From positions 1-50,839 of the forward strand of contig JARLJS010000220.1 in assembly GCA_031291075.1 (NCBI GenBank): a DNA stretch of 50,839 nt, in the 5' to 3' direction. Source of the stretch: Nevskia sp. GTDB lineage: Bacteria > Pseudomonadota > Gammaproteobacteria > Nevskiales > Nevskiaceae. Shown one piece after another: positions 18,822 through 44,191 of the stretch. The position numbers and the translations under genes were made by a program. The stretch's first letter is position 1; the number at the start of each line of letters is the position of its first letter. The notes beneath the pieces were generated by a model, which saw only the letters and a program-made list of their open reading frames with translations, had not been told where the DNA came from and did not search any database.

Positions 18822-20099
18822 ATGCCCGACATTGATCGGCACATACTTAACTACTTCGCCAGACACCCTAACAAAGGTGCCGGCGACGTACCGGCCCTTG
18901 ACGGCCGGAAAATACCACGACAGACCCTATCGCGACGGCTGACTGCGCTCGCCGAAAAAGGGGAATTGATTCGGGTCGGAGAGGGCGCCGGAACTCGCTA
19001 TCTGAGGGGGGATCTGGACGCCTATCTGCGCATCCCAGCAGTCCAACGCCCGCCGGTCGCGTACATCCCGGAACGGGGTGGGCGGAACCTTCCAAGATTT
19101 ACTCGCGCGCACCTGGAAGCACTAACCCGGTCGGCCGGGCCACATGGTGCAACTGCTGAAGATACTGCCCGTGACGTGCGCGAGCGTCTGCTGACCGAAC
19201 TCTCTTATGCCTCATCCAATCTGGAGGGCAATACTTACGATCTCCTCCAGACCGAGGCGTTGATCAAGTATGGACAGGTCGCCAAGGGCAAGACGGCCCT
19301 TGAAGCGAAAATGATCCTGAACCATCGCGACGCCATCCGCTATTTGCTGGACAACATCGCTACGTTGGCAATTGACTGGATTACCCTGCGGGATCTACAG
19401 GCGCTGCTGTCCGATGGATTGCTTGATGATCCCGCGGACTCCGGACGCATCCGACGGCGAATGGTGGCAATCAGTCAGTCCAGTTACCGCCCGTTGGACA
19501 ACGAATTCCAGCTCAGGGAGGCTATTGAAACGCTCCTAGCGGCCGTCAACGATGAGCAAAACCCCTTCAATCGGTCGCTGATGCTGATGACCGGAGTGGC
19601 GTATGTACAAGCGTTCGCCGACTGCAACAAACGCACCGGTCGGGTGATTGCCAATCTTCCTCTACTTCTGGCGTCACTTCCGCCGCTATCGTTCATCAGC
19701 GTTGACAAGGAAGTGTACACGCGCGGGCTTCTTGCCTATTACGAACTTGGCAACGGCAATCCGATCGCAAAGGCCTATGCGGATGCGTATCCCGCAAGCG
19801 CCGACGCCTACCGAACGGGCGCGCATCACAGGCCGAAGTCGGCCGAACAGCTTGCGGTGGAATTGCGCTACCAGGGCTTCGTACGCGAGCGGCTAAGAGA
19901 CATCATCCTCGGCACACTAGATGCGGGAGCTGCGCTACCAGATTCCATCCCGGCGGAAGAACGGGGAGTGGTAGCAGAGATGATCCGAGTCCAGATGGAA
20001 AGCCTGCACCCTGGCCGGGCAGCGCCCTTGGGAGTGACATCGGAAAATATTGAGGCATATCTGGCGCGAAATGCACATCATGGCGCCGAGCGCGCGTGA
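18822..20099 (+). CDS. Fic-domain protein with substituted catalytic His
   Basis: 425 aa. The N-terminal 70 residues form a winged-helix-like region (RQTLSRRLTALAEKGELIRV). The Fic core follows: an inhibitory-type motif SSNLEGN (residues about 132-138, matching [S/T]xxxE[G/N]) precedes the core motif AYVQAFADCNKRTGRVIANL (about 261-280). The canonical motif is HPFx[D/E]GNGRxxR; here the His is Gln, Pro is Ala and the first Gly is Cys, while Asn, Lys-Arg and the distal Arg remain. Fic enzymes usually AMPylate Ser, Thr or Tyr; loss of the general base suggests altered chemistry or a regulatory role. Codon use and GC are lower than in the neighbouring operons. No clear ribosome-binding site precedes ATG 18822. 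Confidence 0.8.
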   Translation: MPDIDRHILNYFARHPNKGAGDVPALDGRKIPRQTLSRRLTALAEKGELIRVGEGAGTRYLRGDLDAYLRIPAVQRPPVAYIPERGGRNLPRFTRAHLEALTRSAGPHGATAEDTARDVRERLLTELSYASSNLEGNTYDLLQTEALIKYGQVAKGKTALEAKMILNHRDAIRYLLDNIATLAIDWITLRDLQALLSDGLLDDPADSGRIRRRMVAISQSSYRPLDNEFQLREAIETLLAAVNDEQNPFNRSLMLMTGVAYVQAFADCNKRTGRVIANLPLLLASLPPLSFISVDKEVYTRGLLAYYELGNGNPIAKAYADAYPASADAYRTGAHHRPKSAEQLAVELRYQGFVRERLRDIILGTLDAGAALPDSIPAEERGVVAEMIRVQMESLHPGRAAPLGVTSENIEAYLARNAHHGAERA

Positions 20100-23791: not shown

Positions 23792-23945
23792 GGTGATTTC
23801 TCCCGCCAGGATTGGATCGAAGCTTGATCGGATGGGGATTGCCCCCCTTCCGTCATAGTGCTCTGGGACGGCGCTGCGGGCTACAGGAAGTGATTGCATT
23901 GCCCACAACACTTGTTGCTGCGGCAAGTCGGTGCGCCACCGCCAC

Positions 23946-23992
23946 GGTAGGAGCCATCAGCCTGTGGGCGGTTCGAGGGGGACTCCATCCCC
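23946..23992 (-). ncRNA. Fluoride riboswitch (crcB motif)
   Basis: On the minus strand, from 23992, the RNA opens GGGGAUGGAGUCCCC (P1 closing stem GGGG/CCCC with loop AUGGAGU), continues UCGAACCGCC, a short hairpin GCC-CACA-GGC, and then UGAUGGCUCCUACC. This reproduces the crcB aptamer consensus, including the invariant GAUGG, the AACC joint and the UGAUGGCUCCUAC strand; GGAG in the loop can pair with CUCC to form the pseudoknot. It lies 155 nt upstream of the DUF190 start, in the transcript of the DUF190-eno operon. Aptamers of this class bind F- through Mg2+ ions and usually switch expression on. The expression platform was not resolved. Confidence 0.9.
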
Positions 23993-24221
23993 GCTATTCG
24001 TAGAGGCTAGACATACTGGCCTGGGTATGCAAGAGGCAAGCGCGGCCCTGTGCCGCTTTGGTGCCACAACGCTATGGCAACCCCGAACCGGGCGCCGATC
24101 GACGGTGGCTCCGGCTCCAGCGGCCGATGGATGGCGAGTATAGTTGCGTGACGTGGCTGGCCTCCGCGCGGCGAGGCGGCACGCAGCGCCTTGCAGTGTC
24201 CTATTTACAGAGGGGAATAAC

Positions 24222-35016: not shown

Positions 35017-35871
35017 ATGCTGATTCGAAAGGGGGACGTGGGGCTGGTTACCGGCGCTTCGCGAGGGCTGGGCGTGGTCATCGCCGAGGCGCTCGCGGCT
35101 CGCGGCATGAACCTGGTGCTGGCGGCCCGGTCACACGATGATCTGGAAGCGGTGCGTCTTCGGCTGGAGACGCGGTACCGGATCGAAGCGATCGCTGTCG
35201 CCGTGGACCTCGACGACGAAGCGGCATTGGCCGCGCTGGTTGATGCCGCTTTGCAGCGCTTCGGACATCTGGACCTGTTGGTCAATAACGCGGGCGTCGA
35301 TCATCCTCTGCGCTTCGACGCGGTGAACCCTGCGGACATCCGCCGCGTACTGTCGATCAATCTCACCGCTCCGATGCTGCTCGCGCGACTGTGCCTGCCG
35401 CATATGCAGCGTGCCGGACGCGGGCACATCGTAAATATCGCCTCGGTCGCCGGGTTGATGTCGTCGGCCTACGAAGAGCTGTACGTCGCCGCCAAGCACG
35501 GGCTCGTAGGCTTTACCCGGGCACTGAGGCTATCCGCGCAGGAACTCCGCTGGCAAGTGAGCGCGTCGGTGATCTGCCCCGGCTTCATGGACGGCGCCGG
35601 GGTGTATGAGCGGATGAAGCTTGAGCATCGCGTGAAGGCGCCTGCGGCGATGGGGAGCATGAGTGCGCAACGGTTGGGGCGGTGTGTGATCGAGTGCGTC
35701 GAGCGTGACCGGGCTGACGCTGTGCTGATGCGCGGCGCGCCACGGCTGGTGGCAGCGCTGCAGGTTCTGCTGCCGGGGCTTTACGAATTGATCTGCAAGT
35801 GGCTGGACACCTCGGCTCCATTTCGAACCGTGGCGTCAGCGAATATGACCAATCAGAGTCGATCGCAATAA
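35017..35871 (+). CDS. Short-chain dehydrogenase/reductase
   Basis: 284 aa, classical SDR. Cofactor motif GLVTGASRGLGVVIAEALAA (TGxxxGxG), LLVNNAGVDH, catalytic Ser in HIVNIASVAGLMSS and YVAAKHG (YxxxK). The Arg after the Gly-rich loop (AARSHDDLEAVRLRL) suggests NADP(H), by general SDR rules. Substrate unknown. A ribosome-binding site (AAAGGGG) precedes ATG 35017; it follows the AraC/GyrI gene in one operon. Confidence 0.88.
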   Translation: MLIRKGDVGLVTGASRGLGVVIAEALAARGMNLVLAARSHDDLEAVRLRLETRYRIEAIAVAVDLDDEAALAALVDAALQRFGHLDLLVNNAGVDHPLRFDAVNPADIRRVLSINLTAPMLLARLCLPHMQRAGRGHIVNIASVAGLMSSAYEELYVAAKHGLVGFTRALRLSAQELRWQVSASVICPGFMDGAGVYERMKLEHRVKAPAAMGSMSAQRLGRCVIECVERDRADAVLMRGAPRLVAALQVLLPGLYELICKWLDTSAPFRTVASANMTNQSRSQ

Positions 35872-35899
35872 TCTGCATGAAGCCAAATCGCGGTCGGTA

Positions 35900-35958
35900 G
35901 CCTGGCCGCCGTAGATCACCGCGCCGGTGGCGTCCTGGTAGCCTGGTAGGTCTGCCAG
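35900..35958 (-). pseudogene. Duplicated scrap of the DUF6351 gene 3' end
   Basis: 35900-35929 is identical over 30 bp to 41988-42017 in the DUF6351 coding region, and after one mismatch and an 8-bp tandem duplication (CCTGGTAG) the match resumes to 35958. In protein terms it is the stretch around YQDGTGAVIYGGQA. It lies in the same orientation as the intact gene, with the giant polyvalent gene between them. It is either the last remnant of a second DUF6351 gene or a target duplication from an insertion. Confidence 0.7.
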
Positions 35959-36025
35959 AGCCCGTAGGGGTCGCGACCCGCCGTCTACCGAGCACCCCAT
36001 TTCGCAAATCCCGTTCGCTCCCCCT

Positions 36026-39000
36026 TCACTTTAGCGGAGCATCGCCTCCCGAAACCCCAGAAACAGTGGACCCCGCTCTAGGCGGGGTCCTGTTCCTGCT
36101 GTAACCGATGCCGTGCAGCTCAGGGTCTAGCCGTCCGACAGAACCTGCCCGCCGTGAAATCTCCTCCAGAAGGCCATGCCATCCTGCCGATCCCGCTCCG
36201 CGTAGTAGGGTATTGATAACAGCCGCTCTCTCAAGCGTGCGACGGCCCGCTCCCGCCGCGCGAGCTCCTCGGGAGGAATTGGGGGCAAGCTCGAAATCAG
36301 CTGGTCCCACGGGCTCACCGGTGCTGATTTTTTCGTATCGTCCATGCTTGAAATTATACTCCAGATCGGCCGCTTCCGGAAACGCGTTCAACAGATTCTG
36401 ATGCGCCCGCTGCATCAAATGCGCCACATTCGCCGCGTCCGCCAGCGGTCCGCCCGAAAGGTCCCACTCCAGCGGTCCAACCCCCAGGCTGGGATCGCCT
36501 TCCAGTTGTCGTTCGTGCGGCTCCAGATGCCGGGTCGTGCCGAACTTCAACGCCGAGTTGAGCATGTTTTCCGTACGGCGGCGCAGCGCGGTGTCGGAAA
36601 GGCCCGCGGGATCCCCGATGAACGTCTTGCCGTTGTTATGCGCGTAGTTGGCAACAGCGTGATAAAGCGCGGAGCCGCCGCTCGATCCCTCGTGAAGACC
36701 GGAAGCATCGATAAACACCCTGCCATTGTGGGTTTCGTAGATTTTTGCCTCCTTACCGTCCGGCATGGTGACGTTCCATTGCTTGCTCACGTCGTAGTAC
36801 GACTTGCGCTGCGGATCGACGTGATCGGCCGTGGCCACGGACATTCGCGGATCCGTGTGCAGGACGATCTCACCCATATACCTGGCATGCGAGATTGGAT
36901 ATTGAAAGAACGCCGAATCCCGCGTCAGCATCTGCAGAGCCGCCGCGGCGCGCTTGTACGCCGATTGGCCGCCGCCGGCGATCCGCGAAAACGCCAGCGT
37001 CAGACGGTCCGCCAGCCCCTGCGGCTGCGCGCCGCGCTCGCGGCCCTCGTACATCCGCTGCCACGACTGGTGCAGCAGATCGCGTACCCGGGCATCGGAG
37101 AACGCTTCCGCGGAATCCGGGCTGCGGCCCAGGATCCGCGTCAGCACGCCGTTCATTGCGGCCGCAAGCTGCCGCGTGTAGCGGCCTACCACGTCCAGCA
37201 ACCTGGGCTTCAGACCCTCCGGTATCTGCACTCTGAGTTGCGACCAATCGCCGGTGCGCTGCGCCGCGTTGAGCTCCGCCAGGGCCTCGCCCGTAGCCTG
37301 CAGGTCATCGAGCTTTTGACCCAGCCCTGCCCGCTCCGCCTGGATCGCATCCGCCAGCTGCCTCACGCCCGGATTGCCCCTGGCGCCTACCAGCGTATCT
37401 CTCAACGCTGCGTCCGAATCCGCCAGGTTGTGCAAACCCCAATGCCCGCCCTCGTGGGCGATGACCCAGGCGGCGCGCTGCAGCGAGGGTATCCGGTTGG
37501 CCAGGAGGTAGACCTGATTGGTCTTGGGATTGAAAAACCCCTCGGCCGGCGCATCCTCCGCTCCGTCGATTGCCACCACTTCCTTCCGGACATCCGCGGG
37601 CAACTCGTCTTCGGAAGCCACAACGGACACTCGATCCTGCGCGCCGCGGTTCGGCAGCGCCCGCCTGACCGCCTGGGCCAGCACGTCGACGGGGATGCCC
37701 GGACGGTCAGCCGTGGCGTTCTTGTCGGCCACAGTTCGCGAAGCCCCGAAAACACCGCGCCCCTCACCAGCAGGGGCGCTGTTCGCATCTTCGCTGGCTC
37801 GCGACGATGATCGAGGCGGATCGTCGGCCGCTCCGATCCGCGCCTCCGGATACCGTCCCTGATACCTCTCCCGCAACTGCTGCTGCGACAGCGGCACCTC
37901 CGCATCCAGCCGCGCCTGCAACCGGCGCCGTCCCAGCTTCGCCGCCAGCCGCACACTGCGCACCTGCGCCTGCTCCAGGCTGTTGCCGTCGGTGATGAGG
38001 CTGCCGCTGTGCGGGTCGATCACTGCGTAACCTGATCCGTCGGCCTTCTTCGCCGTCACCGTCTCGATGCTGTCCAGCAGCTTGCCGTGGAGGGGGTCGG
38101 TGTATTGGTTGCCCTCGCGGTCCAGCACGAAGCGCGGATCGGGCTGGCCACCGTCGGCGCGCATGGCGTTCTCGCCGCTGTCCCGGTACGGCTCGCCGGT
38201 GACGTCGGGCGTGGTATTGCCCAGCGCGCGGGCGCGGTGCGCCGCCGCGTCGTAGTAAGGCCTGGCCTGGTCTTCGATCCGGTTGGGATCGAAGCCGAGC
38301 TGGCGCATGCGGGCATGCTCGGCTTCGGTCGCCGCGCGGTGCGCTTCGTTGTAGCTGTGCCCGGCGTCGAGCAGGGCCTTTTCCACCCGCTCGTGGTAGT
38401 CGTGCGATTCCTGCAGGTCGAACGGCCGCGTCTCGCCGGAGCTGTGTATTGCATCGATGGAGCGCGGCTTGCCCACGTCGTGGACGGAGGTCACCCCGTC
38501 CTGCGACATTCCCGCCACCAGGCCCACGTGGTCGTGGCGGATCGGCAGGCCGTCCCTGTTCGATTCGCGCGGAGCACCGCCATCTTCGGACCCCGGCCCA
38601 CCGGCCCTGGAGAACCGTGGCTTCGGCTCACTCCCGTCGACAACCTCGCTGCCTTCGTCACCCCTCCCCTGCCCGGGATCGGGCCCGGATCGATCAGATG
38701 TCTCCGCGCCGGAGCGGTTGACGGCTTCGGCCGGCCGCGCCAAGCTGTCTTCGAAGCCGGCGGGCGGTGTGGAAAGTCGGGCCTGGGGTTCCAGGCTGTC
38801 AGAGGTCCCCCTTAAAGACGCCGGCTTCCCTGTTTCCGCCGAGGAAATAGAGACGGCAGCCGGCCGCTCCATATCGGCACCGGACGAATCGACACCGGAC
38901 CGCTTGACAGCCTCCACCAGCCGCGCGAAGCTGTCGTCGAAGCCGGCGGGCGGTGTGGAAAGTCGGGTCTGGGATTCCGGGCCGTCAGCGTTCCCCCTTA

Positions 39001-41617
39001 AAGACGCCGGCTTCCCTATTTCCACGGCGGAAACGGTGTACAGCCGAGCACCCTGAGATCTGATCCGCATCTCCTTCGCCAGAATCTTGACCCGCAGGAT
39101 GTCCTGGCCGAACGGCATTGGCACTTCGAAGTGGTGAATGGCGCCGATATTTGTGTTGCCGCCTCTGTCCTCCCGCGTCAGCTTCCGTAGCGCGATCGGG
39201 AACAGCCGGTCGAGATTCGCCACCGCCATCATGTGCGCCTGCGGCGAAATCGATTGCCTTACCGCGCTCGTACTCAACATCTTTCCCAGCGAACCGCTCG
39301 ACACCGTGGCAACGACCCCGGTTTCCAGGTTGCGCGACGGCTGGTTCAAATAGCTCGCCGCGGCGCGCTTGGCCAGATCCGACCCGGTGACATCGCGCAG
39401 CACGCTGCTAAGCTGTTGCGCCTGCTGCTCCGCCGTCTCAAGCGCATCGCGCGAATAAGCCTCGATGCCGCGATATCTCCCTGGCCCCGTGGTGCTTCGG
39501 CGCCCCTCATCCCATAGCGCCTGCCGCACCGCCCTGCGCACCGTCTCCACATCGTTCACGAACCGTACAGCCTGCCGCCCCATCTGCCCAGGCGTGCCGT
39601 CCAGCCTGCCGCGCAGCCGGTCGAAGAAATCCAGCGCATGCACCGCAACGCGGCGGAACAGGCTCGGCTCCAGCCTCTTCTGCAAATCACGGACGAAGCC
39701 TGGATCGGCGAAGTGATCCCCCACCACGTCGGCGATCAGCTCCTCGTGCCGGCGCTCCGGACTGAGATCGCCGATGCCGTGCTCGCTATAAAGCTCCGAC
39801 AACCCGCTCTTGTGGGCCTCCCCCTGCGCCTCATCGATCGCCGGCCGCAGCGCATCCACCAGGCGCCCGTACACATCAGGAGACTCCTGCCGCAATGAAT
39901 GAAGCAGCTCGTGGCCGATCACCTGTGCATGCGGCCGGTCGCTGTCGGCGTTGATGAACAAGGTGTCACCGCCCAGATAAGCCCCGCGCATCGCCGGATC
40001 GCCGCTACGCACGAACACCACCTTGCGACCGAACAGACGGCGCACAGTGCTGCCTAGCGCGGCCGCAGCCATGTCGGGCGGTGCCACCTGCTCAACCGCG
40101 ATGCTGCGGCCATGCAAACGCGTCAGTGCTTCGGCCAAAGCGGAAGCCGTCGCCGGCCGCTCCGCCTCAGCGGGCGATGGTCGCAGCACCCCGTCCTGCG
40201 ACATTCCCGCCACCAGCCCCACGTGGTCGCGGCGGATGGGCAGGCCATCGCGGTTGGTGCTTACCGGCGCCAGCCGTTCTGCGCCGCCCCCCACTTCTCC
40301 TGCAGCGCCGCCAGGCTGGACGCGCTGGCCGGCGCCGTCATCCTGCGCCGGTGTTCCACCACCTTGTGCGCCATCCGCAGCAGCGCCGCGGGACTGTGTT
40401 TTGGTTTCAGCGTTTGCACGATTTCTCTCCTTCACCGCCGCCAGGTAGGCGCCGGTGTCTTCAGGGTGTTCCGCATGGATGCGCGAAGCCGCTTCCGGAT
40501 CGGTCGCCACCAGGTGCGCCACGTCCGCCACTGCGTCGGGCACTTGGTGCGGCGCGATGCCCTCGCCTTCCGCCCCGGCGCTCCGCTCGTGGTCGTTCAG
40601 CGGTTGCACCGGGCCCGCTGGCCTGCGTACCGGTTCTTCGGCCTGCAAGCCCACCGTCGGTGTCTGCGCCAGCGGAGCCGGCTCAGGCTGCCGCTCGTCG
40701 AGACCCACCTTCGCCGCCGTTGGCTTGCCATTCCTATTTGCCGGATCATTGCCGGCACGACTCGCTGCCGGCATTTCACCGACCATGCCGCCAATCAAGC
40801 CGCCGGTCGCAACTGCCGGCGCATCCTCCCAGCCCAGCAGCGGCGCATTTCTCACATCCGCGGGCGCATCGGACCCCAAGGCCACCTTCTCCACTTTGTG
40901 GCCCGCGGCGGTGAGCCCCGCGGCAATGGCGGAACCGCTGCCCACCCGCCGGATGACTCCGCCCTGCACATGCCCGGGCACCGCCGCGGTCAGCGCGGTG
41001 AATGCCGTGTTGGCCAGGGTGGCACGCTGCGCCGCATCGGCCGGCACGCCTTCCTCCACCAGTTCCTGCGCCCGCTCCGCCGGCCCCAGCGGAAATGTGG
41101 CCACCCCCAGCGGCAGCGCACCCACCACGACGCCGGTCCGATTGAAATGTTCCCCCGGCTTCTCACCGAACTTCTCGATCCCGGCCTGCTTCACGTCGTG
41201 CGCCAGTGCCATGAGCTGCCCGGCCCTATTCGTTGCCCAGTGGTAACCCTGGTCCAGCGCTTCGGACAATCCGGCGATCGGATTGATGCCGGGATAAGGA
41301 ACGCGCTGCAACTGGTCGGCACGTCCGTGGGCGCTATCCGCCGCCTCGCCCAAGCCAATCAAAGCTCCGGCGCCGGTGAACGGCAGCGCCGCGGCCGCCG
41401 TCGTCGCGGACTGTCCGAATGAACGCACCGCGCTTTCCCCGAACGGCACCTGCCGCACAGCGCCGCCTCTCTCCGGCGGCACCAGCCCCACGCTCACCGG
41501 CGCGGGCTTCGCCCCGACCTGTAACGCCGAACCCCAGTCGAACGTACTTTCATCCGGTGCCATCGCATGCCGCACCAACGCGCCCCCGACATCCAAGCCC
41601 TGCTCATCCCCAGCCAT
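36026..41617 (-). CDS. Giant polyvalent-type protein with two zincin (HExxH) domains
   Basis: About 1,863 aa, Pro/Ala/Arg-rich linkers between globular modules. Residues, approximate: 60-330 Gly/Ala-rich hydrophobic helices (TTAAAALPFTGAGALIGLGE, LPLGVATFPLG); 568-572 HELLH zincin helix followed by a downstream HEELIADVVGDHF acid; 770-870 a module SAVRQSISPQAHMMAVANLD with VEIGKPASLRG; 1070-1135 SHDYHERVEKALLDAGHSYN and ARMRQLGFDPNRIEDQARPY; about 1387 a second zincin, VIAHEGGHWGLHN; 1568-1755 a C-terminal module (HARYMGEIVLHTDPRM, NYAHNNGKTFIGDPAGLSD). This mosaic matches the polyvalent proteins described from phages and conjugative elements, which are co-delivered with DNA. ATG 41617 has GGGGAGGGG upstream. 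The last ~105 codons look out of frame (see 36127-36345). Confidence 0.75.
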   Translation of the reverse strand: MAGDEQGLDVGGALVRHAMAPDESTFDWGSALQVGAKPAPVSVGLVPPERGGAVRQVPFGESAVRSFGQSATTAAAALPFTGAGALIGLGEAADSAHGRADQLQRVPYPGINPIAGLSEALDQGYHWATNRAGQLMALAHDVKQAGIEKFGEKPGEHFNRTGVVVGALPLGVATFPLGPAERAQELVEEGVPADAAQRATLANTAFTALTAAVPGHVQGGVIRRVGSGSAIAAGLTAAGHKVEKVALGSDAPADVRNAPLLGWEDAPAVATGGLIGGMVGEMPAASRAGNDPANRNGKPTAAKVGLDERQPEPAPLAQTPTVGLQAEEPVRRPAGPVQPLNDHERSAGAEGEGIAPHQVPDAVADVAHLVATDPEAASRIHAEHPEDTGAYLAAVKERNRANAETKTQSRGAAADGAQGGGTPAQDDGAGQRVQPGGAAGEVGGGAERLAPVSTNRDGLPIRRDHVGLVAGMSQDGVLRPSPAEAERPATASALAEALTRLHGRSIAVEQVAPPDMAAAALGSTVRRLFGRKVVFVRSGDPAMRGAYLGGDTLFINADSDRPHAQVIGHELLHSLRQESPDVYGRLVDALRPAIDEAQGEAHKSGLSELYSEHGIGDLSPERRHEELIADVVGDHFADPGFVRDLQKRLEPSLFRRVAVHALDFFDRLRGRLDGTPGQMGRQAVRFVNDVETVRRAVRQALWDEGRRSTTGPGRYRGIEAYSRDALETAEQQAQQLSSVLRDVTGSDLAKRAAASYLNQPSRNLETGVVATVSSGSLGKMLSTSAVRQSISPQAHMMAVANLDRLFPIALRKLTREDRGGNTNIGAIHHFEVPMPFGQDILRVKILAKEMRIRSQGARLYTVSAVEIGKPASLRGNADGPESQTRLSTPPAGFDDSFARLVEAVKRSGVDSSGADMERPAAVSISSAETGKPASLRGTSDSLEPQARLSTPPAGFEDSLARPAEAVNRSGAETSDRSGPDPGQGRGDEGSEVVDGSEPKPRFSRAGGPGSEDGGAPRESNRDGLPIRHDHVGLVAGMSQDGVTSVHDVGKPRSIDAIHSSGETRPFDLQESHDYHERVEKALLDAGHSYNEAHRAATEAEHARMRQLGFDPNRIEDQARPYYDAAAHRARALGNTTPDVTGEPYRDSGENAMRADGGQPDPRFVLDREGNQYTDPLHGKLLDSIETVTAKKADGSGYAVIDPHSGSLITDGNSLEQAQVRSVRLAAKLGRRRLQARLDAEVPLSQQQLRERYQGRYPEARIGAADDPPRSSSRASEDANSAPAGEGRGVFGASRTVADKNATADRPGIPVDVLAQAVRRALPNRGAQDRVSVVASEDELPADVRKEVVAIDGAEDAPAEGFFNPKTNQVYLLANRIPSLQRAAWVIAHEGGHWGLHNLADSDAALRDTLVGARGNPGVRQLADAIQAERAGLGQKLDDLQATGEALAELNAAQRTGDWSQLRVQIPEGLKPRLLDVVGRYTRQLAAAMNGVLTRILGRSPDSAEAFSDARVRDLLHQSWQRMYEGRERGAQPQGLADRLTLAFSRIAGGGQSAYKRAAAALQMLTRDSAFFQYPISHARYMGEIVLHTDPRMSVATADHVDPQRKSYYDVSKQWNVTMPDGKEAKIYETHNGRVFIDASGLHEGSSGGSALYHAVANYAHNNGKTFIGDPAGLSDTALRRRTENMLNSALKFGTTRHLEPHERQLEGDPSLGVGPLEWDLSGGPLADAANVAHLMQRAHQNLLNAFPEAADLEYNFKHGRYEKISTGEPVGPADFELAPNSSRGARAAGAGRRTLERAAVINTLLRGAGSAGWHGLLEEISRRAGSVGRLDPELHGIGYSRNRTPPRAGSTVSGVSGGDAPLK
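36068..36090. repeat. Palindrome at the 3' end of the giant gene
   Basis: GGACCCCGC-TCTAG-GCGGGGTCC, a 9-bp perfect stem, lies inside the last codons of the long reading frame. It is closely related to GTCCCCGC-GTAG-GCGGGGAC at 41635-41654 just upstream of the same gene. There is no convincing T-run after it on either strand, so it may be a REP-like unit, not a terminator. Confidence 0.6.
36127..36345 (-). CDS. Small protein overlapping the 3' end of the giant gene
   Basis: 72 aa beginning MDDTKKSAPVSPWDQLISSL and ending FWRRFHGGQVLSDG, in a different frame from the giant reading frame. Its third codon positions are clearly more GC-rich (roughly 70% by eye) than those of the giant frame over the same bases (about 55%), and its composition is that of a folded, charged helical protein (ELARRERAVARLRERLL). 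The giant frame here turns Gly/Arg/Ala-rich without structure. So this is probably the real gene, and the giant protein's meaningful sequence ends near NFKHGRY. No family is recognised; GGAG upstream is rather far from the ATG. Confidence 0.5.
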   Translation of the reverse strand: MDDTKKSAPVSPWDQLISSLPPIPPEELARRERAVARLRERLLSIPYYAERDRQDGMAFWRRFHGGQVLSDG

Positions 41618-41634
41618 CGAATCCCCTCCCCGTC

Positions 41635-41769
41635 GTCCCCGCGTAGGCGGGGACCCAGTTTTCGTACCGCAAGCGCTCCTCATCCACCAATAAAAAGCCC
41701 CGCACCAGGCGGGGCTTTAGAACTCCAATCAATCTCCAATCAATCCGTCACCCCGGCGCAAGCCGGGGT
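41635..41769. repeat. Cluster of GC-rich palindromes upstream of the giant gene
   Basis: Three stem-loops: GTCCCCGC-GTAG-GCGGGGAC (41635-41654), the terminator-like hairpin at 41692-41718, and ACCCCGGC-GCAA-GCCGGGGT (41750-41769), the last preceded by a tandem CTCCAATCAAT CTCCAATCAAT. The outer two belong to the common extragenic CCCGC-nnn-GCGGG palindrome type. The first resembles the palindrome at the 3' end of the giant gene (36068-36090). Confidence 0.6.
41692..41718. terminator. Bidirectional rho-independent terminator
   Basis: AAAAAGCCCCGC-ACCA-GGCGGGGCTTT: an 8-9-bp GC stem with A and T runs on the two sides. It lies between the DUF6351 stop (41918) and the giant gene (41617), both on the minus strand, so it should separate their transcripts; a promoter for the giant gene would have to lie in the 75 bp that remain. 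Confidence 0.75.
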
Positions 41770-41917
41770 CCAGGGGCCCACAGCGCCGCACTGAATCCCC
41801 TGGATTCCGCCCGCGACACGGTGCCGCGCCAGCGTGGGTGCGGGAGCGGGCGGATGACTCCGCAATGACCCTGGTGAGCGCGGGCGCGCCGGAATGACGA
41901 TCGCGATTGCGCGTCCC

Positions 41918-44191
41918 TCACTGCGCAAACACCCCGAACGCCGGACTGGCCCAGCCACCGCCGGAGTTGGCGGGCGCGGCCGGCATGGCCTGGCCGCCGT
42001 AGATCACCGCGCCGGTGCCGTCCTGGTAGGTCTGCCAGGCGATGGTGGCCTGCTGCTGCACGCCGGGCTGAGTGAAGTCGCACACGCCGTCGGGAAAGAT
42101 ACCCTGCAGCTGCGTCCACTGCGCGTCGGTGAAGGCGGCCGGGCCGTAGTTGTCGCTACGGTCCAGTGGCTTGAGCGTGCACTTGCTGATGTCGGTGGCG
42201 ACGTCCTCGCCGGCCACCATGCGCGGCGTGCCGTACACCGGCACCACCGCTGGCCCGCAGAGCTGGCTGGAAAGCTTGTTGCCATTGCCGTCCCAGCAGG
42301 CGTCGCTGAGATCGGCCGGCTTGTCGTTGACGACCTTCTGCGCCAGCGTGGCGGTGCCGGTGTCGGCTTCGATGGCGGCCAGCCAGCGGTCCATCGCCGC
42401 CAGGCTGTTCAGGTTGCAGTCGGCGTCGCCGACGATCACGCTGGGGCCCTCCCAGATCAGCTGGTTGGCGTGGCTGCCGTGCTCACGGTCCAGCCGGGCG
42501 CGCACCGCGAAGGCGCGGTAGGAATCGTGGGCGAGGCACGGGTTGGGGCCGCGGCAGTCGATGATGGCGGTGCGGTCGAGATTGTTGGTCTCGTTGATGC
42601 TGCCGCTGCGGTAGGCGTTGGCCAGCGCCGGCTCGTCGGCGACCAGGCGCTGCGTGATGTGATTCATGTCCACGTCGAGCCCGCCGATGTTGGCGTTGAG
42701 ATCCACGAACTCGGCCGGCGTGATCTGCTGCTTCTGCAGCGCTTGCAGGCCGTACTGCACGCCCACGTTGTCGGCGGCCAGCCCGCCGAAGCCGTGGCCG
42801 ATCTGCTTCTCCGGCGCGGTCCACACGCCGGGCGGGCGCGGCCCGAAGATGTTGATGTCGTAGTCGACCACGCTGCAGCGCACGCCGCCGGGATTGGTGG
42901 TGGGGTTGTAGAGCTGCTGGCTGCTGACGCCACCGCAGAGACTGGTCGGCACCAGGGCGTAGAAGAAACCCTTGTCGCTGACGACGGCGTTGATGGTCGA
43001 GGCGGCGCCTTCCACCGCGGACCTCTTCTCCTCCGTCCATAACAACTGCTGCGCGGCGGACAACCGGCCGAAGTAGCCGATCAGCATGTGGTACTCCGCC
43101 ACCTGCACCGCGCTGCTCACCGCGTCCGGGAAGGAGCAGGTGGGCAGGATGCCCTGGTAGACGCCCGGGTAGGCGTTGGCGATCCACTGCTGCGCCAGCG
43201 AGCCGCCGGAACAGCCCTGGCCGATGGTGTAGCGCAGGGTGCCGTAGCTCTCGATCAGGTGCTCCTTGGCCATGATGAGCGACTCGGCCTGCACCGCCAG
43301 GTTGCAGTCGTGGCCGCTGTTGTCGAGCGCGGTGGACATCACCGCGAAGCCGGCGCCGAGGGCGTACACCGCGCTGTCCGCGCCGATCGCAAGACCGCCC
43401 AATCCCAGCGGCTGGTAGCTGGTGGTGCTGGGCGCGGTGCCGGTCTCGTACTGCGCACCGCAGCTCGCGCCGTGGTCGATCACCAGCTTGTGGTTGAACT
43501 GCTGCTGCGGCTTGAGCGCGGTCCACGCCTGCTTGGGCTGGAACAGCACCGCAATCTGGTACTGGTCGCGGTCCTGGTAGCCGGTTTCCACGCGCACGAT
43601 GAACGGCACGGCGACGCCCTGGTCGGTGGTGGTCCTGGCCACGTCGATGGCGGGCTTGGCGGGATCATAGGGCTGCAGGCCGCGCTTGAGCGGATCGCTG
43701 GACTTGTACATCCAGGTGTACACCGGCGCCTGGTTGCACTGCGCGTCCACCGCGCCCTGCTGGCAGGTCCAGGGCTGGATCTGCGGCCCGGCGAACACCG
43801 GCCCGCCCTGCGGATGGTTGACGATGGTGACGCTGCTGACCGCGAGGCCCGGCGCCTGCGCGCTCAGCGTGTTGCTGCCGACGGTGAGGCCGCTGACCAG
43901 CGCCATGTACTGGCCGCCGCCGGAAGCGGCGAACTGCGCGCTGATATCCTGGCCATTGAGGCTGACCCGCAGCGCCGACGCGGCGGTGCCGGACGGCGGA
44001 TCCACCTCCACCAGGGCGTCGCCGCCGTTGATGAGGTCGGCGCGGTTGGAGAGCACCTTGATGGTGGGACTGTTCGAGCCGCTTGCGTTCGAATTGCCGC
44101 CGGGACCGCCGCCGCCGGATGAGCCGCCGCCGCAGGCCGCAACCAGGAGCGCAAAGGCCAGGACGGAGACCCGCCGCATTTTCGTCTGCAT
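41918..44191 (-). CDS. DUF6351-family lipoprotein, predicted serine hydrolase
   Basis: 757 aa. The signal peptide ends in a lipobox, LAFALLVAACGGG, followed by a Gly/Ser-rich tether, so the mature protein is a membrane-anchored or exported lipoprotein. An N-terminal immunoglobulin-like domain (IKVLSNRADLINGGDALVEV) precedes an alpha/beta-hydrolase-like region; TIGQGCSGGSLAQQWIANAY has the form of a nucleophile elbow around Ser, and ILPTCSFPDAVS follows. The family is uncharacterised but resembles secreted esterases in layout. GGAGGGG stands about five bases before the first ATG. It appears monocistronic, ended by the terminator at 41692. A scrap of its 3' end is repeated at 35900. Confidence 0.8.
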   Translation of the reverse strand: MQTKMRRVSVLAFALLVAACGGGSSGGGGPGGNSNASGSNSPTIKVLSNRADLINGGDALVEVDPPSGTAASALRVSLNGQDISAQFAASGGGQYMALVSGLTVGSNTLSAQAPGLAVSSVTIVNHPQGGPVFAGPQIQPWTCQQGAVDAQCNQAPVYTWMYKSSDPLKRGLQPYDPAKPAIDVARTTTDQGVAVPFIVRVETGYQDRDQYQIAVLFQPKQAWTALKPQQQFNHKLVIDHGASCGAQYETGTAPSTTSYQPLGLGGLAIGADSAVYALGAGFAVMSTALDNSGHDCNLAVQAESLIMAKEHLIESYGTLRYTIGQGCSGGSLAQQWIANAYPGVYQGILPTCSFPDAVSSAVQVAEYHMLIGYFGRLSAAQQLLWTEEKRSAVEGAASTINAVVSDKGFFYALVPTSLCGGVSSQQLYNPTTNPGGVRCSVVDYDINIFGPRPPGVWTAPEKQIGHGFGGLAADNVGVQYGLQALQKQQITPAEFVDLNANIGGLDVDMNHITQRLVADEPALANAYRSGSINETNNLDRTAIIDCRGPNPCLAHDSYRAFAVRARLDREHGSHANQLIWEGPSVIVGDADCNLNSLAAMDRWLAAIEADTGTATLAQKVVNDKPADLSDACWDGNGNKLSSQLCGPAVVPVYGTPRMVAGEDVATDISKCTLKPLDRSDNYGPAAFTDAQWTQLQGIFPDGVCDFTQPGVQQQATIAWQTYQDGTGAVIYGGQAMPAAPANSGGGWASPAFGVFAQ

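Follow-up and report, generated by a model that had tools for sequence, protein, structure and literature searches.

Polyvalent proteins, as described by Iyer et al. (2017; PMC5512222), unite in a single chain at least two unrelated domains, among them domains of the LPD ('large polyvalent protein associated domain') type; their injection together with the DNA and their disarming of host defence are proposals of the same literature (PMC5512222). About 8% of the MPTase-bearing proteins treated there have more than one such domain. Polyvalent proteins located outside selfish elements make up a sizeable fraction, for which capture from prophages and a possible use against incoming elements have been put forward (PMC5512222). 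The virion RNA polymerase of coliphage N4 is likewise giant and ejected with the phage DNA (PMC12633501), and it also has a zincin-type domain (PMC5512222); its comparison with the protein studied here is an analogy only, and Pfam finds no polymerase domain in the latter. A literature search under the name LPD37, the domain at the centre of this work, returned no paper.

The protein in question, P0001, is encoded in a window of 50,839 nucleotides (the whole stretch of DNA that was analysed) belonging to a draft genome of 302 contigs. Its closest described counterparts are the following: (i) the 'DarB-like antirestriction' giant of the Erwinia phages PEp14 and Pavtok (Pavtokvirus), whose LPD37 region is 44-45% identical to that of P0001, and which in PEp14 follows virion structural genes but differs in its length of 4,914 aa and in belonging to a complete phage genome, with lysis genes and an integrase downstream; (ii) two giant genes lying last before an end repeat, one in a genome of the same genus (G010; LPD3 41% identical) and one in a genome of the same family (G018; zincin-type domain 1, 37% identical), which differ in encoding 3,580 and about 4,740 aa and in residing in prophages of about 55 and 60 kb; and (iii) a protein from another genome of the genus (G001, contig C279), 47% identical to P0001 over the N terminus and 67% over the module at residues 1041-1237, which differs in following abutting ORFs (one with a weak virion-protein match) and in having neither the block formed by zincin-type domain 1 and LPD3 nor a second linker copy.

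P0001 resembles the polyvalent proteins of Iyer et al. (PMC5512222) in being a multi-domain LPD mosaic with two zincin-type domains, and differs from them in standing without a surrounding element and without the long tail found in 65 of 66 distinct large LPD37 proteins. In our reading, which we hold at a probability of about 0.75, P0001 is the one gene left from a temperate, podovirus-like prophage; it is truncated at its C terminus and probably silent. As a case it is ordinary, chromosomal polyvalent proteins having been on record since 2017; its interest is that it would illustrate the survival of a giant phage protein after the loss of its prophage. The features within the gene are the following, with residues counted from the first ATG:

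36026-41683, minus strand: ORF P0001, orphan polyvalent-type protein (ORF list of the window), with the Shine-Dalgarno-like sequence GGGAGGGG before the ATG at 41617.
40748-41437, minus strand: N-terminal Ala/Gly-rich region, residues 83-312, with hydrophobic stretches recognised by eye; 47% identity to the G001 protein.
40187-40255, minus strand: copy 1 of a 69-bp in-frame linker repeat (NRDGLPIR..HVGLVAGMSQDGV), before zincin-type domain 1; 91% identity to 38492-38560.
39479-40171, minus strand: zincin-type domain 1, residues 505-735, with HELLH at 39899-39913 and Glu648 at 39740-39742 (alignment and model).
39038-39370, minus strand: LPD3, residues 772-882 (Pfam); 57% identity to viral contig locus L002.
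38709-39033, minus strand: two in-frame 139-bp copies after LPD3 (38709-38847 and 38895-39033), 86% identical at a spacing of 186 bp.
38492-38560, minus strand: copy 2 of the 69-bp linker repeat (pair comparison), at the start of the following module.
37973-38563, minus strand: module without a Pfam match, residues 1041-1237; 67-68% identity to G001, also present in viral contig L148.
37184-37696, minus strand: zincin-type domain 2, residues 1330-1500, with HEGGH at 37442-37456 (28 relatives, motif counts, model and the weak phrog_87 match).
36197-36940, minus strand: LPD37, residues 1582-1829 (Pfam E 1e-74; 257 bits in the genome search).
36029-36079, minus strand: tail of 17 residues beyond the part that aligns to PEp14, overlapping a palindrome at 36068-36090 (tail count and palindrome scan).

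The first ATG of the minus-strand ORF gives a protein of 1885 aa, and the plus strand has no open frame at 36026-41683. The ATG at 41617 (residue 23) appears to be the better start, because GGGAGGGG stands 5 nt before it and the first 22 codons overlap the host repeat at 41632-41660; 1,863 codons are left from there. This agrees with the preliminary description of the locus, which gave no strand, ended the gene at 41617 and reported a single frame of more than 1,800 codons. The two HExxH sites that it placed near residues 568 and 1387 start at residues 569 and 1388 when counted from ATG 41617, HELLH being residues 591-595 and HEGGH residues 1410-1414 from the first ATG.

Pfam recognises two families of 'large polyvalent protein associated domains' in P0001, LPD37 (PF18853; residues 1582-1829) with an E value of 1e-74 and LPD3 (PF18798; residues 772-882) with one of 2e-8, in agreement with the preliminary description, which called the frame a polyvalent-type mosaic. 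NCBIfam gave no match to the protein. Among PHROGs profiles, phrog_18222, a family of large phage proteins, covers the LPD3 region (E 8e-13), and the metalloprotease family phrog_87 matches weakly at the second HExxH (E 0.0035). The second zincin-type domain is also weakly matched by capP of PADLOC (E 8e-4). The hydrophobic character ascribed earlier to the N-terminal part can be seen in residues 83-312, the Ala/Gly-rich region shared with the G001 protein of the same genus.

As judged from the alignments, both HExxH motifs are non-chance and lie inside conserved domains, which upholds the claim of two different zincin motifs. At the first site, the His, Glu and His of the motif and the later Glu648 (HHEELIAD), the downstream acid proposed previously, are invariant in 22 of 22 sequences, namely the window and 21 relatives. 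For the second site, the window was aligned with 28 relatives spanning both the second-zincin stretch and LPD37; His-Glu is kept in at least 90% of the 29 sequences and the downstream Glu1466 is invariant. The motif itself reads HExxxH in 23 of them, HELMH in four, HETLH in one (L094, which has a zincin-1-type domain there) and HEGGH in the window.

The model of zincin-type domain 1, built from 21 sequences with a mean pLDDT of 84.2, runs from a helix through three strands to the HExxH helix and on to a helix that carries the Glu; the order of helices and strands is less certain in the model of zincin-type domain 2. Alignments and models together point, at both sites, to a motif helix (HExxH or HExxxH) and, after it, a helix supplying a Glu ligand. 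The layout modelled for zincin-type domain 1 matches the description of such peptidases in Iyer et al. (2017; PMC5512222). Searches of PDB with Foldseek gave nothing at E <=0.001 for either zincin model, and sequence profiles gave no significant match of either site to peptidases. Since no match reached that threshold, the assignment of the fold relies on sequence conservation and predicted secondary structure. The LPD37 part of the model is confident, yet it too has no PDB match at E 0.001. On its domain composition, P0001 belongs among the polyvalent proteins of Iyer et al. (2017; PMC5512222): unrelated domains (two or more, LPD-type ones included) share one chain, and phage giants are found among its relatives. 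Neighbouring late or conjugation genes are absent at the locus among the ORFs scanned and present in relatives.

The mosaic character of P0001 is also evident from comparison with its relatives, which have single blocks in common with it, in varying order. The G001 protein matches residues 83-312 and 1041-1237, the G010 giant shares LPD3, the G018 giant zincin-type domain 1 and the Erwinia phages LPD37; in viral contig L148 the blocks 1042-1302 and 474-727 fall in two ORFs, in reversed order with respect to the window. Among the loci compared there was no closer whole-protein relative, the best match covering about a third of P0001. In P0001 the two 69-bp linker copies stand on either side of the block made of zincin-type domain 1 and LPD3, whereas the G001 homologue has one linker copy and no such block. 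We read this as a gain of the block by an ancestor of the window protein, in which case the second linker copy here, set against the single copy of the nearest relative, which lacks the block, would record one step of domain gain. The dN/dS ratio of P0001 is 0.43 and 0.39 against G001 and 0.14 against L002, where synonymous sites are saturated; for the most part these values measure the history of the gene in phages and are uninformative about the period after its stranding.

The distribution of LPD37 is sporadic. Counting the window's own genome in both cases, the domain was detected in one of 18 genomes of the genus and in two of 369 of the class, and P0001 is the single LPD37 match of its genome. 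When the whole protein was used as query, some part of it was matched in seven of 85 genomes of the order; a first whole-protein scan of the genome collection had yielded no relative. Rare in genomes, the domain is common in phages: one scan of viral contigs gave 88 stretches with it, of which 80 were kept, and LPD37 loci in the genome collection number 24. Such a pattern rules out a chromosomal core gene, and the homologues are not encoded as one. A conjugative element was ruled out as well, no transfer gene being found among the scanned ORFs. Plasmid matches of P0001 are seven and partial; the best one is on a Massilia plasmid typed as non-mobilizable, and two are on plasmids typed as mobilizable.

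LPD37 also occurs in small genes. Four solo ORFs of 273-299 aa (L047:9761-10636, L063:9710-10558, L064:3996-4892 and L065:9779-10597) occur in contigs of Pseudomonas (three) and Serratia marcescens, and the neighbours listed for them include no giant protein; Pfam confirms the domain in L047, L063 and L065, the three ORFs scanned. These ORFs offer a small, clonable route to the function of LPD37. Two further fragments were observed: a 515-aa LPD37 ORF in a Nevskiales MAG (G060, L033:9674-11218), whose ends and flanking ORFs resemble, by eye, translated short CRISPR-like repeats, and a second chromosomal polyvalent fragment (G059, L032:8274-14931) in which a PBECR1 ORF is followed by an overlapping ORF with an HExxxH stretch and LPD37, placed between tRNA-Lys/tRNA-Pro genes and another tRNA-Pro.

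The surroundings of P0001 in the window are as follows:

41918-44191, minus strand: host gene upstream of P0001, DUF6351 (tannase-like), which contains repeat copy 2 (Pfam E 1.2e-226).
41988-42038, no strand assigned: direct repeat copy 2 (51 bp), in the 3'-terminal part of the DUF6351 gene; it matches copy 1 at 50 of 51 bases once an 8-bp insert is set aside.
41694-41718, minus strand: terminator-like hairpin between the DUF6351 and polyvalent genes, with a 10-bp stem and a T-rich tail (hairpin scan).
41632-41660, no strand assigned: 29-bp interspersed host-genome repeat, just upstream of the ribosome-binding sequence (genome repeat search).
35900-35958, no strand assigned: direct repeat copy 1, 59 bp including the extra 8 bp, 67 bp beyond the P0001 stop; probable attachment-site repeat (repeat comparison).
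35017-35871, plus strand: host gene for a short-chain dehydrogenase (SDR), downstream neighbour (Pfam).

Direct repeats, which the preliminary description does not mention, thus stand at both ends of a segment of 6,029 bp with one gene and abrupt edges. The pair reaches a local score of 91, against a maximum of 37 in 553 control window segments and of 31 in 300 shuffles; its genome-wide E value is 1.2e-14, the next best being 0.005 among the 40 of 189 candidates that were scored. We infer that this 51/59-bp repeat is an attachment repeat. Between its copies, only one gene has profile matches and there is neither an integrase nor a structural gene, for which reason the segment is regarded as a prophage remnant and not as a prophage. 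Beyond it, the larger, non-overlapping ORFs of the window (seven neighbours and ten further ones by Pfam, eight and seven by PHROGs) contain no integrase, structural or transfer gene. Their PHROGs matches are to enzymes and regulators of host type (SDR/FabG-like, flavin oxidoreductase, AraC-type, Fic and cyclic-nucleotide-binding-like), and phrog_511 has no match in the window's genome. For these ORFs, the earlier statement that no phage or conjugation gene lies nearby is true, and the word 'stranded' fits a gene that is the only LPD37 match of its genome. As to composition, GC at third positions is 0.77 in P0001, 0.92-0.94 in three of the six neighbours measured and 0.76-0.84 in the other three; the contrast with the former favours a remnant, the similarity to the latter counts against it.

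In Cupriavidus basilensis a DUF6351 gene stands beside an SDR gene, as in the window minus the insert. The genus offered only remote DUF6351 matches in the search for an empty site, and two plasmid DUF6351 proteins compared at their ends stop before the repeat; the DUF6351 tail beyond the repeat may be original or element-supplied, so that either of the two gene ends may be the original one. An exact 24-base piece of the repeat had no match in the viral contigs, and our searches for this locus yielded no integrase, attP-bearing phage or empty site. A single gene between direct repeats with abrupt edges would also be expected of a small mobile unit, that is, a cassette of the gene and its flanking repeats moved by an integrase acting in trans and not what is left of a longer prophage. 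We regard this as very improbable: among the 40 of 189 repeat candidates scored there was no second copy of the repeat elsewhere in the genome and no second LPD37 gene was seen, no other such unit appeared in the loci examined, and two relatives sit at the ends of full prophages.

The layout of these two prophages, the ones examined in detail, supports a prophage remnant, and it answers the suggestion that relatives be sought inside prophages. In G010, an integrase adjoins one of two 41-bp repeats about 55 kb apart, and the giant gene is the last one, 80 bp before the other repeat, a position like that of the window repeat 67 bp after the P0001 stop. In G018, the integrase lies at one end and the giant gene at the tRNA-Leu end, with about 60 kb, a P22-like portal gene included, separating the two ends; the giant gene is about 380 bp from the repeat, whose match is weak (28 bp, 89%). 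In these two related prophages the giant gene thus stands at the very end, beside the attachment repeat, a position in which it could be lost after all the others. In line with a terminal position, the contig ends exactly at the stop of the large LPD37 protein in 6 of the 67 viral loci that include such a protein up to its stop. The G001 homologue follows three abutting or overlapping ORFs and is cut off by the contig end; the first of these ORFs weakly matches the structural families phrog_596 and phrog_8003, as does the gene just before the G010 giant, and G001 carries a phage internal virion protein gene on another contig. With respect to the G010 repeats (L043:17760-17800 and L038:2719-2758), one appears to lie in dusA, as recognised by eye, and dusA is a known integration target (PMC4482086).

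Against the prophage remnant, the terminal position of the giant gene is not general, as in PEp14 genes follow it; of the 67 viral loci just mentioned, 22 have their contig end within 3 kb of the stop, and in 45 the contig runs on for more than 3 kb. The G018 repeat, being weak and about 380 bp off, counts on the same side. So does the 370-bp stretch that separates repeat copy 2 from the gene and holds the end of DUF6351, the terminator-like hairpin and the host interspersed repeat; to be reconciled with it, a simple integration would require either insertions at a later time or a gene end brought in by the phage. A stop-free frame of 1,863 codons is, moreover, unusual for an old relic.

The host interspersed repeat also bears on the assembly. 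Among the 39 other matches listed (40 of 45 candidates were scored), 38 overlap 41632-41660 at 88-100% identity and 14 are found no more than 100 bp from a contig start, so that a longer repeat family probably breaks the assembly. With dozens of copies of the repeat in a genome of 302 contigs, an intact prophage or an unrelated contig could have been misjoined at the copy just upstream of P0001. Such an artefact is scarcely probable, about as little as the mobile unit, given that the local copy has just 29 to 39 bp in common with the others, which is short for an assembly overlap, and that a random join would not account for a DUF6351-specific repeat beyond the opposite end of the gene.

The most conspicuous difference between P0001 and its large relatives is at the C terminus. 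Two pattern scans for LPD37, whose returns are not a census, gave 104 loci (91 distinct) in which the match was extended; in 65 of the 66 distinct large proteins (1,800 aa or longer, their stop falling within the locus) the LPD37 match is followed by 600 residues or more, with a median of 1,174, compared with 17 in P0001. These tails fall in one similarity group in 62 of 66 cases. The best reading of this comparison is that P0001 is C-terminally truncated. Pieces similar to zincin-type domain 1 or 2 of the window occur in 7 of the 66 tails, from which it follows that domain order varies and that P0001 may end naturally at LPD37. Nine distinct ORFs of less than 600 aa end within 239 residues of LPD37, several of them being solo LPD37 genes. 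A search of the window's genome for the missing tail, made with the tail of one relative, had no matches and, having no positive control, is uninformative.

Regarding expression, the region 35850-42100 gave no sigma-70-like promoter match (0.8 expected in shuffles), a consensus scan being weak evidence in such a host, and the terminator-like hairpin of the upstream gene is 76 bp before the P0001 start. With a ribosome-binding sequence present and no evident promoter, P0001 is probably silent or weakly read.

These observations weigh on the second half of the preliminary description, which had left open whether the gene is stranded or domesticated. Retention by the host, the product harming or blocking incoming phages, is an idea in print (Iyer et al.; PMC5512222), to which P0001 lends an open frame of 1,863 codons with its ribosome-binding sequence, intact catalytic residues in zincin-type domain 1 and a second zincin-type domain weakly similar to capP, the solo LPD37 ORFs of Pseudomonas and Serratia pointing the same way. 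Domestication is nevertheless unlikely in our view: LPD37 is not conserved across related genomes (its own included, one of 18 in the genus and two of 369 in the class), the long tail is missing, the gene has no promoter-like match but a terminator-like hairpin upstream, and the second zincin-type domain reads HEGGH at a site that is HExxxH in 23 of the 29 sequences aligned, a change that may or may not matter. Its more specific form, a working single-gene relic kept against related phages, in which a shortened protein ending at LPD37 would act on superinfecting phages through its zincins and LPD37, is less probable still. Were the protein a host weapon, the Pseudomonas and Serratia solo LPD37 proteins, some 280 residues long, would represent later stages of the same process, and they make host retention for defence testable.

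Returning to the prophage remnant, the preferred reading, the following model is proposed. In the parent phage, as pictured from the relatives, the giant protein would have been the product of a late gene at the prophage end, packed into the head and entering the cell with the DNA; following Iyer et al. (PMC5512222), virion travel and DNA-coupled entry are the most likely route of the parent protein. Its Ala/Gly-rich N terminus would help passage into the cell and its two zincin-type domains, most likely acting on the chain itself or on host targets, would cut the polyprotein and/or host proteins, LPD3 and LPD37 having no assigned function. Integration of the prophage would have taken place in the 3' end of the DUF6351 gene and given rise to the direct repeat; later deletion would have removed the integrase and structural genes together with the C-terminal tail of the giant. 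What is present today would be a decaying, probably silent leftover that still keeps its frame open.

Elsewhere in the window, two features unrelated to P0001 were recorded: a fluoride riboswitch (Rfam RF01734, 55 bits) at 23941-24001 on the minus strand, upstream of a DUF190 ORF, and a Fic/DOC-family protein of 425 aa at 18822-20099 on the plus strand (Pfam E 7e-9).
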